DNA of 64,000 nt, taken from assembly GCA_021018995.1 (NCBI GenBank), contig CM037597.1, positions 8,135,299 to 8,199,298 on the forward strand. Reading direction: 5' to 3'. The stretch's first letter is position 1; each line of letters opens with the position of its first letter. Below the pieces are notes generated by a model. It worked only from the letters and a program-made list of their open reading frames with translations, did not search any database and was not told the DNA's origin. The translations under genes and the position numbers were made by a program. This stretch comes from Chloranthus sessilifolius. Taxonomy: Eukaryota > Streptophyta > Magnoliopsida > Chloranthales > Chloranthaceae. This document shows, in pieces, positions 1,211-58,200 of the stretch.

Positions 1211-1304
1211 AAGGATCAAAAAATCAGATTTCATTTCGGTGGGGACCGAAACCGAAACATTTCAGCCAAAATCTTCAGATTACGGTCAAAATTTTGATCC
1301 ATGG
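1211..1304. mobile_element. Word element, CGAAATTTCG family (copy 1)
   Basis: Termini AAGGATCAAAA and TTTTGATCCATGG are inverted copies of each other. The interior is made of ACCGAAACCGAAA-type words. Flanks TCAAGCCC (1203-1210) and TTAAGCCC (1305-1312) form an 8-bp target duplication with one mismatch, which points to a hAT-type non-autonomous element. No coding sequence. Confidence 0.7.
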
Positions 1305-1748
1305 TTAAGCCCAAACTTCATCTTACGCCATCTGACTAGAGAACTAATGTCATTTAATATGGACTCTCACCACTTCACAAGCGACCCATTTACAAGATAA
1401 CTCTTTCACATAAATGACAAGATTAAATATACTATAAAGTGGATACAACAATTTTAAAATGTGCAAACTGGATACATAACCTCAAAGGTAGATAGACTAA
1501 AAAAAAATCTTATGTTCAATTGCCACTGAAGCATTCTTATGAGTGCTTCATATAATGAAGTAAAAGAACAGTGGCCTGCGTCTTTGTACCTGTTTACTTG
1601 TAAGTAGCAACCTTCTTAGATCTTACAAGTACTTTGGTTGTCTCCCTACAAAAACAAAAAATCTGTGTTTTATTTGTCCCTGCAACCAATCAATTAGTAG
1701 TATATATAACCCAAAATGAGCATAGTCCCTATATACTTAAGTTCATAG

Positions 1749-55200: not shown

Positions 55201-58200
55201 TCAATCTATTCTCAGACGAATCGATCGACTCAGGACCAAATCGAATTGCTTATTTTCTTTAAATTCGATCGATCAATTCCAATACCGATCGGTCGATCTT
55301 GAACTAACCGAATTACTTTAATTTCGATCGATTGATTTCTCATGTTCGATCGATCGATTCTGGATAGAACCAATTTACCTATTCACTTTAAATTTGATCG
55401 ATCGATTCTAATTTCCGATCGATCGATTCTGAACCGAACTAAATGACTTCTTTGCATTAATTACGATCGATAGATTCCAAAATCGATCGATCGATTCTCG
55501 TCCGAACAGACAGCATTTTCACCTTATCACGGTCAAAACTTTAAGGCATATTAATCACAAGTAGGTTTTCGATCGATGGGCGTGATTCACCTCACTTCGA
55601 ACTGCGATATCTTTCCCTTTTATTATTCGATTAGAGTGACCTATTTCTTAATTCTATCGCTTCAACACGATCTCCGCGATAGAATGAGAAGTTAAAAATT
55701 CGATGCCCTCGTGATATCAAACTCTAACCTTTACATTCTTGATTTCTCGCCCTGAAAATTACCTTACCTTATATTTGTATTGGTGTTATATAAATATAAT
55801 ATATACGTATAAACATAACGAAATCTTAAATGTAAATTTATCCATTAAAGTAAGATAGTTATATGTTTTCATCTAGTATGTTGCACTAGTTGTGAATATG
55901 TTAGGTCATATGTATGTTAATGTATGAGATCATGCCTACGCTTGGGAGTGATGATTTACTGAAATGGTATCGAAGCCGGAATCACACCGTATTGACATAC
56001 CTTACAACTCATTGTGGTATGGGATATAATGATGAGTAGGATGAGTGCGAATTCAATGTCACCTCGTATGTAGTGGCATATGCAGTGACCCTATCACCCC
56101 AAGTTTTAAATATGATAGGATAAGTTATGAAATAAGATACAAGATTTGGACCTTTAGGCCTTAGTCATGATGGGATTCATTTCACGGTCACGTGGAACTC
56201 GGAATGTAGGCATCCATGTACGGATGCAACACCTCTTTAGTAGTATGGGCCGACACACGAAGTACATCCAGGTTACTACGAAACTCGTTCCTTGGGAAGC
56301 ATGATTAATAAAGTTTATAGCGTTATAGCTCACTATAGATTCAGGTTGTAAGAGTATGTTAAGATATGAGTTTGTAAAATAAGATAAGTTATGAGTATGA
56401 TAATAAGACACTGCTGTATAGGCCAATATAAGATTAAGAACTTAAGTTTGTACATGTCATTCCTTATGTAGCCACCGTAAAGGCCACAACGTTTTACAGC
56501 CAAGACGAGTCTCTGGGAAGACAGTATGAGTATGTTATGAGTTACGATTGGCCAAGTCTCCCCATAGGCAAAATGAGGTGTATGAGTATGTTATAGAGAG
56601 CATTATGTTATGGAGTAAGCTACTACGATGACCCTCATATGGTAGGTTCGAACAGCGACTCTGGCACGGGTCGTATTAGGATTTACGAGTATGTTAGGTA
56701 CGCCCATGTGATGTACAGACGTATGTGACAGAATAATAAGATATGTTACGTGTATAAAGTATGGTAAGGTACGTTAGGACTAGAGTGTGTCTAGATCATG
56801 GTCTTACATTTATGATATGATACGAACCCTATGATGTGTAGGAACTCTACGACTTTTATCACTTAATGCACCTGAGTCGTGTAGACTGAGTAAACTCATC
56901 CCACGAAAAACTAACAGTTGCAGGTAATTATATCAACGGAGTGGATGCTGGCTATTCTGATCCTTTTGGCGCTAACTTCGTTGACCCGGTAGGCACAAAA
57001 TACCAGGAGCCTTGAGAGGGTGATATAGTAGGTTATCAAAAGGACCTTAGCGATGAGATTAGTTTCGTACAGTAATTGTTTATTTATAGCCTTGTACTTT
57101 TCATTTATGTCTAATCTTTATTTTCTCATCGATTCTTAGATATTTCATTAATTTTTATTGCAATTATTTATTATTTATGGCTGCCCACTTATTTCATTCT
57201 TTTATTGTTGGGTTCACGAATTTTGTGGAACCATGTTAGTGCGAGAACTCTGATTATGTGTACATCCGGTTAGCATACTTGGGATGCGTGCGGCTCAAGT
57301 TTATAACTCGAAATTTTAGGTCCTCGGGATGGGGTAGAATTTCGCGTCGTGACAGATACGCATCAACCTATATAAATAATTAAAAATATTACAAAATTTG
57401 CCCAAATGGTATTTTTGATAATATATCCTGTTCATATCGGATATATTTCGGCCGGTTTGACCCGATAATGGCTGATATTGACTGACTTTTCACCCGATAT
57501 TTGACCCCATACAAAATCGGGTGTATATATTGTGTCCCAGATGGGGCCTAAGTTAGCCCGAAACATATCAGCCAATATGTATCGGATATGGCCCATATTT
57601 ATTTCTACAAAAAATCATTTCGCGGGAAATCAACTAGGAAGTTTATTTTATTTGCTGTTCTTCTTCTCCATTCCCCTTTTTTTTACCTAGAAATTTAGAG
57701 AGAAGCTTAAGTTATGTCTCATGGAATTACAGTTTTGGCACAAATATTAATTAAACACAATTCATAAAATTGCAAAACTCTATATGATCATAAAACAACA
57801 TATTTAAAATAAAATATTTAAAAAAAAAAGATTATAGCAAAATAAGAAAGAAGAAAGCTCAGCACACATACTAGGCGAAACGTAAGGCCGTCGGGCCGCT
57901 CCAAGATTTGATACGGAGAGGATGAACTTTGCGATCGGTGGCTGTTCTTTCGAAACACGAGAGGGCTCCGGAAACAGACGAACGTATAGATACCGATTCT
58001 TCTCGATCGACAAGTGCCTGAAATGATTCAAAATCGAAAAATCGTAATACCGAGATCTCTTCCCAATGAGACTCAAAAAAACAAAAAAATCGAAATCAAC
58101 AAAGAAGAAGATGAAGATGAGGGGATTACCAGTTCCAGATTCCGACTTTGAACGGATCAGATCTTCGGAAGGAACAAGAACTGAAGTTTTCCACTCTCCA

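Follow-up and report, generated by a model that had tools for sequence, protein, structure and literature searches.

The window, a 64,000-nucleotide stretch of the Chloranthus sessilifolius genome (C14:8135299-8199298), holds a set of short repeats, each marked by a short word repeated towards its ends. Most of the elements listed in an earlier, sequence-only reading of this stretch are real miniature inverted-repeat transposable elements (MITEs) of the hAT superfamily with family-specific subterminal words, and several of them have transposase-bearing relatives in the same genome (2.17 Gb searched, 32 contigs). An excess of target-site duplications (TSDs), the saturation of outer zones with words, transposase-bearing copies with the same words and the clustering of words by transposase clade together point to hAT MITEs with a lineage-specific subterminal word. 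We consider it probable that these are non-autonomous elements of several families, in which each word is the predicted binding site of the family's own transposase, likely through its BED domain. The earlier observation was partly confirmed as a whole, and its interpretation partly supported: one superfamily in which ends and the 8-bp TSD stay constant while the word changes is borne out by TSDs, terminal inverted repeats (TIRs) and transposase-bearing copies, whereas an exchange of entire words, block by block, from one family to another was not borne out, the data fitting a word that diverges along with the BED finger.

Every listed place was re-read and found to hold an element, boundaries being fixed from terminal motifs (Table 1); one similar element, with a CGCATA word and ending at 26463, had been missed. 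The two places at 54205 and 57355 are a single element, interrupted by a GATAC-flanked insertion of about 3.1 kb (54266-57354) that is probably a solo long terminal repeat (LTR), and for the GAGGCGTACGCCTC element at 22127 the probable right end is 23219 (TSD 6/8), two candidate ends having 11/15 TIR matches. The termini are not of the single form proposed earlier, more than one terminal class being present (CAAGG/CATGG..TCAAAA, TAGGG..TCAA, CATAGTCACAAA and CGGGGATTTAAA); short TIRs of the CAAGG/TAGGG type occur, and are weak or unclear at 7268, 51833 and 57603. Whole elements with set ends measure 94-741 bp, the one at 22127-23219 being longer. Sorted visually according to word, ends and core, they comprise TATCGG families A (5241, 28896, 30026, 38961), B (7268, 44599, 54211+57355) and C (51102), a TTTCGG group (1210, 1749, 29399, 38533, 51833), a GGCC group (15547, 28047, 40391), and the singletons 3859 (AAATTCG/GCCGAA) and 22127-23219 (GAGGCG). 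They have the traits of MITEs (short, non-coding, multicopy), copy number being taken from genome searches with the 5241, 1749 and 44599 elements. These counts are lower bounds: all 40 scored places matched in each search (of 1994, 2304 and 1104 first-look candidates, respectively), the main rows besides the query itself showing 80-88% identity for 1749 and 67-88% for 44599. A further copy of the 3859 element, with the perfect TSD CTTATATG, lies in locus L074 (2400-2681).

Flanking duplications were compared for 17 elements, the split element (54211+57355) counting as one and the 22127 element being left out. At least seven of the eight bases agree in eight elements, perfectly in five (1749, 3859, 5241, 15547, 38533) and at 7/8 in three (1210, 28047, 38961); in the other nine, 3 to 6 bases match. 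In 2000 draws of randomly placed stretches of equal length, agreement of at least 7/8 occurred 0.29 times on average (maximum 3) and perfect agreement 0.033 times (maximum 2), far from the equal frequency that would have made the matches coincidental, although the test is somewhat generous because some boundaries were set with the TSD in view. Among the duplications earlier described as perfect, five stood (GTTCATAG, ACCTGGTC, CTAACAGC, GAAAGAAG, ATTACAAC), but GTACAAAA (28875-28882) is not a clean TSD since it lies 13 bp outside the TIR. Eight copies of family A (L001-L008, L001 being the window copy at 5241) have three perfect TSDs and six of at least 7/8, with boundaries allowed to move by 6 bp and no null for this set. 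The 8-bp TSD of hAT elements is thus seen in eight window elements and in five transposase-bearing copies (four at 8/8, one at 7/8), and the nine window elements without a TSD are assigned to hAT by family or ends only. A blind scan for TIRs with 8-bp TSDs across the window was dropped, its 123 filtered matches comparing with 87-100 in four block shuffles; the subset with a perfect TSD and a TIR of at least 10/12 held 7 against 0, 1, 1 and 1, some of the seven being plain direct repeats. As the blind scan was full of chance matches, anchored tests were used.

The outer zones had been described as saturated with one word in both orientations. Compared with 200 Markov shuffles of its own sequence, each of 13 of 18 pieces showed significant saturation (P <= 0.025), but in the remaining five (1210, 28047, 40391, 51833, 57355) saturation alone was not significant (P > 0.2). 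Across the window, a 7-mer recurs at least four times, with both orientations represented, over about 250 bp in 29 regions, not all of them hAT-like; Markov shuffles yielded 3, 3, 4, 3 and 0 such regions. TATCGG occurs 80 times where 19 are expected, and 69 of the 80 cluster at the nine places given for it; its orientation is mixed (in seven elements, plus and minus copies number 19 and 13 in the left half, 12 and 15 in the right). The words named earlier were less exact elsewhere, the top hexamer differing from the named word, and lacking CpG, in 4/18 pieces (3859, 5241, 15547, 29399). The A/T-rich core was recovered in 11 of the 14 pieces of at least 170 bp, in which GC is lower than in the outer thirds, but not in the other three.

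Transposase-bearing hAT copies with the same kinds of word, namely GGCCCG, CCGAGC, TATCGG and ATGCGA/AAGCGA, together with TTTCGG at 3' ends only, are present in the genome. Searches with PF05699 (the dimerisation domain), PF14372 and PF04937 (DUF659) gave 4130, 460 and 6301 first-look candidates, 150 of each being scored. Thirty loci each were taken for PF05699 and PF14372, six of the latter (L039, L040, L053, L055, L059, L063) being places already among the former, and 31 small stretches were extracted around transposase loci, picked among rows with fairly long open frames and on the plus strand except one. Both ends were read for five copies, and in all five the word stands beside the TIR at both ends, the end words differing by one base in two of them. 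Counting in the outer 350 bp of each end, the GGCC Ac-like copy (C2:128427578-128432658, 5081 bp, TSD TTTGTGAG 8/8) has GGCCCG 5 and 8 times, the CCGAGC Ac-like copy (C1:922893-927600, 4708 bp, TSD GTTCCAAG 8/8) has CCGAGC 8 and 7 times, and the TATCGG copy of DUF659 type (C4:155219149-155224806, 5658 bp, TIR CATGGGTCAAAATATCG, TSD ATTCTTAC/ACTCTTAC 7/8) has TATCGG 9 and 5 times. The other two, also of DUF659 type and 3434 bp each, belong to a family with ATGCGA words at the 5' end and AAGCGA words at the 3' end: C10:65487283-65490716 (L095/L086, TSD GTATTGAT 8/8) carries ATGCGA 8 and 0 times and AAGCGA 0 and 6 times, and C12:108407939-108411372 (L093/L084, TSD GCGACATC 8/8) carries ATGCGA 5 and 0 times and AAGCGA 3 and 5 times, with an extra AAGCGA-holding block in its 5' array. 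The unequal end words and the differing 5' arrays of this family would fit block turnover inside an array. Stops are present in several transposase-bearing copies.

Several window elements can be related to such copies. Over 98 bp, the right end of the 51102 element shares 86% identity with the 3' end of the TATCGG copy on C4 (L089/L081), and an inner stretch of 67 bp shares 94%, which makes this copy its best candidate partner. The left 400 bp of the 28047 element match the 3' end of the transposase-bearing locus L019 at 76% identity (420 columns). TTTCGG arrays followed by ...TTTTGATCCTTG stand at matching places at the 3' end of three DUF659 loci (L075, L082, L083), and the 26306-26463 element shares its word type with the DUF659 hATs L093-L095. 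Among ten DUF659 3' stretches, TATCGG arrays were found in L078, L080 and L081, TTTCGG in L082 and L083, AAGCGA in L084 (with a CCGAAA array further on) and L086, and CGCATA in L087, with no clear word array in L079 and L085; L097 and L099 again have the AAGCGA 3' end. A CTGATG repeat in L079 (12 copies) considered as a word array stems from a tandem repeat with a length of about 0.1 kb and not from a two-orientation array. The dimerisation domain is present in the candidate GGCC and CCGAGC partners and, for the family-C relative, in the L081 piece (PF05699, 2.9e-11); the TTTCGG elements are linked to candidate partners via 3' ends only. Two further arrangements were seen in these stretches: L041 (C6:47029767) is a hAT copy with the additional word ACCCGA/TCGGGT and the right end TTGACAACCCTA, and in L080 (1590-1811) the TATCGG array at the end of a DUF659 hAT seems to be interrupted by an inserted TATCGG-word element with a CATGGGTCAAAAT end.

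Read in gene direction and from CG-containing words only, the 30 best PF05699 loci, whose selection ignored their words, fall into the classes GGCC (12), CCGAGC/GAGCTCG (10, with weak calls for L017 and L034), TTCGGT (3), TTTCGG (1, L022, with the array at another distance), none (2, the domesticated-looking L009 and L011) and uncertain (2, the weak L029 and L033, the latter cut by an LTR-type insertion). An unfiltered count of hexamers was made in the 250 bp before the right end, which is of the ...CCCTA type and within reach in 23/30 loci; taking, among several possible ends, the one with most CG before it, the commonest hexamers all contain CpG, mostly within CGG, in 21 of the 23, one of several tied hexamers does in L034 and none in L017. 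Five GGCC-type loci (L018, L020, L026, L030, L031) carry a non-CpG hexamer, AAGACC, which is repeated 7-10 times in the stretch separating the coding part from the word array.

That the word goes with the transposase lineage was apparent in a tree of 33 dimerisation domains, 30 from the PF05699 loci and three from DUF659 loci sharing one label. All 10 CCGAGC loci, with L022, form one clade (support 99/99), and 11 of the 12 GGCC loci, with L033, form the neighbouring one (97/95). GGCC requires 3 changes on the tree against a shuffled mean of 9.9, and CCGAGC 2 against 8.7, values as low being reached in 0/500 shuffles for either word; all seven labels, including none, uncertain and the joint DUF659 label, require 7 changes, the minimum being 6 and the shuffled mean 18.2 (as low in 0/200). 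The two clades have nearly equal TIRs (TAGGGCTGTCAA / TAGGGCTGCAA) and the same TSD length with different words, and related DUF659 hATs likewise carry either TTTCGG or TATCGG.

A zf-BED domain scored above the Pfam cut-off in five of six N-terminal pieces, and the words mostly have a CGG or GCG core. Identity is lower in the BED than in the dimerisation domain between GGCC and CCGAGC transposases (43% v 69% and 39% v 62%) and between TTTCGG and TATCGG ones (48% v 73%), and stands at 79% v 90% in the single same-word pair; this gap is compatible with a joint change of BED and word, without proving it. In the alignment, the helix that leads up to the zinc-binding histidine has the sequence GGGVS[KR]LK in TTTCGG, GGGITRLKEH in TATCGG, GTCHLKRH in GGCC and ETITLKRH in CCGAGC transposases, and GCISRHKQH, GGIGRYKQH or RGIGRHKQH in the ATGCGA/AAGCGA and CGCATA families. 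By alignment, these positions may correspond to residues S66, N67 and R70 of Hermes, reported to contact bases (PMC10368747). When solved structures were searched with a profile of the BED alignment, the best matches were CTCF zinc fingers, and no Hermes chain was among the matches listed.

Such an arrangement has clear parallels. Ac transposase of maize binds AAACGG subterminal repeats (PMC3260210), in a manner that depends on which strand is hemimethylated (PMC5371812); the Herves transposase binds CGATTCAT, and Arabidopsis Tag1 has the motifs AAACCC on the left and TGACCC on the right (PMC3143072). As the motifs are unlike between the two ends of Tag1, Ac and Tol2 (PMC3143072), unequal end words have a precedent. 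The BED fingers of Hermes bind AAGT subterminal repeats, including a palindromic pair beside the TIR (PMC10368747), and hAT-derived BED proteins tested on binding arrays have diverse specificities, most for CGG, some for GCGC and some AT-rich, the motifs of four hAT proteins matching their own subterminal regions (PMC8097297). From the position of the words, their sorting by clade and these reported relatives, we infer that the BED domain binds the word. The N-terminal BED zinc finger of each lineage would read its own family word; many copies inside the ends, in both orientations, would let a multimeric transposase load several BED fingers and draw the ends together, and cutting and joining would act on the short TIR and the 8-bp target site, both constant. 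If the BED finger changes in a lineage, the word array would follow, while the catalytic domain, TIR and TSD length are kept. BED and word would then change together, and the MITEs would be moved in trans by these candidate transposases. By analogy with the report for maize Ac, CpG in the word might also make binding depend on methylation, which is speculative.

Several findings weigh against this reading. The TTTCGG partner is seen by its 3' end only, L077 showing no array over the 2.8 kb that precede its coding start, and among the stretches extracted no transposase-bearing partner was found for TATCGG families A and B, nor for the 3859 and 22127 elements. L074/L076, considered as a partner of the 5241 family, looks like a family-A element broken by another DUF659 hAT, and its TSDs do not match. 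No Pfam BED was found in the ATGCGA-family piece, where a C-C-H pattern was seen by eye only, and BED may evolve faster than the dimerisation domain in general. On the tree, GGCC is not confined to one transposase clade but found in two, as L019 stands apart from the main one; L022, within the CCGAGC clade, carries a TTTCGG array at another distance, presumed to be a separate insertion; TTCGGT is not clearly clustered (2 changes against 2.9 shuffled, as low in 35/500); near-copies ease clustering, and 20 of 30 inner branches are weak. With the DUF659 rows under one label, the tree does not set TTTCGG against TATCGG, and since the clade test covers Ac-like words only, our confidence is slightly lower. 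As to composition, the excess of CGG/CCG within the 18 pieces (38.9 per kb against 8.9 outside, 4.37-fold, at a GC of 0.38 against 0.36) is partly circular, because the elements were chosen by their words; TCG is enriched 2.4-fold, the ratio being 1.1 for ACG and 0.66 for GCG. The top hexamer contains CpG in 10/18 pieces, lacks it in four and is tied with a CpG hexamer in four more. CpG decay as the chief source of word variants had a mixed outcome: transition variants are in excess per type (21 against 3.4 expected for two types in TATCGG, 18 against 1.7 in TTTCGG), yet other variants are over-represented too (62 against 10.3 for the other 16 types, and 22 against 4.5).

The word differences might alternatively be old family differences, the families being unrelated hATs with only the general hallmarks in common and obeying no rule, be it a CGG core or a change in step with the BED. 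This is consistent with the distance between Ac-like and DUF659 transposases (branches of 1.57 and 2.61 changes per column), with the several terminal classes and with the few window elements whose top hexamers lack CpG. It is nevertheless unlikely, given neighbouring clades with near-identical TIRs and different words, and CpG in the commonest hexamers of 21/23 loci. More doubtful still is an origin of the words in structure-prone expansion of arrays (palindromes, slippage or template switching), kept as hairpins and shared by common descent only. Blocks are indeed gained and lost, two copies of one family differing in the 5' array, and CpG-rich palindrome arrays also occur in what appear to be LTR elements of the window, a dense CGATCGATCGAT array at 54902-55577 within the 54266-57354 insertion and a TTTCGATTAATCGAAA array at 60809-61207, apparently (by eye) inside an LTR retrotransposon, so that word saturation is not confined to hATs, a further point against our reading. 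Against array expansion stand the five transposase-bearing copies in which arrays adjoin the TIR at either end, and a CGG or GCG core mostly common to unrelated arrays and found again in reported hAT BED specificities; two domesticated-looking genes on the tree show no array in the 1.5 kb read. Least probable is binding of the words by a host factor (a domesticated BED/CGG-binding protein or a methylation reader) that aids or represses movement in place of the transposase: domesticated-looking hAT genes exist in the genome (L009, L011, L072 and L073, by eye) and CGG/CGC motifs are bound by hAT-derived host proteins, but the sorting of GGCC and CCGAGC words by transposase clade would not be explained by a common host factor. 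L072 and L073 have no arrays at their ends.

The features of the window are collected in Table 1. Besides these, the sequence type of the TTTCGATTAATCGAAA array also breaks up the hAT copy in L033 (2800-3243). Another repeat type with AGAGCTATGCCA-like ends was recognised by eye at 3150-3535 and 40350-41110, the GGCC element at 40391 seemingly being nested in a copy of it, and perhaps, from the word scan only, at 9864-10275. At 2608-3012, a segment of 186 bp is duplicated in direct orientation (99% identity, spacing 219 bp), and open frames at 33155-34509 on the minus strand resemble, by eye, a broken polyprotein of a Copia-type retrotransposon.

Table 1. Word-bearing elements and associated features of the window.
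Positions	Feature	TIR	TSD	Remarks
1210..1303	TTTCGG-word MITE	CAAGGATCAAAA/CATGGATCAAAA	GTCAAGCC/GTTAAGCC 7/8	saturation alone P 0.345
1749..1904	TTTCGG-word MITE		GTTCATAG perfect	
3859..4193	AAATTCG/GCCGAA-word MITE	CATAGTCACAAA	ACCTGGTC perfect	
5241..5545	TATCGG-word MITE, family A		CTAACAGC perfect	many TATCAG forms
7268..7551	TATCGG-word element, family B		none found	core resembles 44599 by eye
15547..15932	GGCC-word MITE	TAGGGGTCTCAA	GAAAGAAG perfect	five top hexamers all without CpG
22127..23219	GAGGCG-word element	CAAGGCTTTAAAAGG/CAATGTTTTCATAGGC	6/8	right end one of two candidates
26306..26463	CGCATA/TATGCGA-word element	right CAATGTTGTCATATGCGG		absent from the earlier list; left end not fixed
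28047..28787	GGCC-word element		CCTATTAC/CCTATGAC 7/8	saturation alone P 0.55
28896..29114	TATCGG-word MITE, family A		none clean, best 6/8	
29399..29585	TTTCGG-word MITE		none	many TTTTGG forms
30026..30275	TATCGG-word MITE, family A		none clean, best 6/8	
38533..38740	TTTCGG-word MITE		ATTACAAC perfect	
38961..39142	TATCGG-word MITE, family A		GTCAAGCC/GTCATGCC 7/8	
40391..40881	GGCC-word element		none found	saturation not significant, P 0.715
44599..44891	TATCGG-word MITE, family B		best 5/8	
51102..51568	TATCGG-word element, family C	CATGGGTCAAAA	5/8	
51833..51974	TTTCGG-word element		none	right end unsure; saturation alone P 0.285
54211..54265	TATCGG element, left part, family B by eye			split by insertion
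54266..57354	Insertion, ~3.1 kb, likely solo LTR			TG...CA ends; GATAC on either side
57355..57603	TATCGG element, right part (of 54211..54265)		whole element without 8-bp TSD	saturation alone P 0.285

Family-specific binding words are already known in hATs; what is new here is the series within one genome, together with the CGG/GCG core and the match of word and clade. As in maize Ac/Ds, with its transposase-bound hexamers in the outer 200 bp, 11-bp TIR, word ending in CGG and short non-autonomous relatives that have the TIR and some hexamers in common (PMC3260210), the words lie towards the ends, but Ac/Ds is one family with one word, whereas several families are found here, whose words differ, are often more tightly packed and have their two orientations abutting. 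Herves and Tag1 also have short family-specific subterminal motifs, bound by their transposases, with ends that may differ (PMC3143072); they are single families, in contrast to a series of words under nearly equal ends. The arrangement of BED and subterminal repeats resembles that of Hermes, for which BED binding is known (PMC10368747) and for which we predict a counterpart here, although the Hermes repeats (AAGT, no CpG) are spaced and the present words saturate their zones. The CGG-binding proteins (CGGBPs) share BED-type domains of diverse specificity, usually with CGG or CGC; binding was tested there on arrays (PMC8097297), whereas the word arrays of several families are compared here within one genome. 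The term 'plant' is absent from the main text of that work, as is 'subterminal' from the main text of two recent plant MITE papers, and no account of such word diversity within one plant genome was found among the titles and abstract openings listed in searches of open-access literature.

Tentatively, the words could form a plant-type hAT end code, in which a CpG-anchored CGG/GCG core is constant and the flanks are set by the BED helix; a stricter rule, with all words of the form NNNCGG, was dropped, the ATGCGA/AAGCGA and GAGGCG families carrying GCG. Under such a code, joint change of BED and word would isolate sister lineages from each other's MITEs, CpG would make end recognition methylation-dependent, and the ATGCGA/AAGCGA family would be midway through a change of word. 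The larger question is how a transposase can evolve jointly with its binding sites and keep its function; with the word tied to the transposase lineage in several families, the joint evolution of enzyme and recognition site becomes testable. The genome, with hAT transposase candidates in the thousands and near-equal ends that accompany several word classes, provides a natural series for BED specificity, and the same series could explain which MITE obeys which transposase. If true, the presence of CpG in most words would extend the link between movement and DNA methylation to hATs other than maize Ac.

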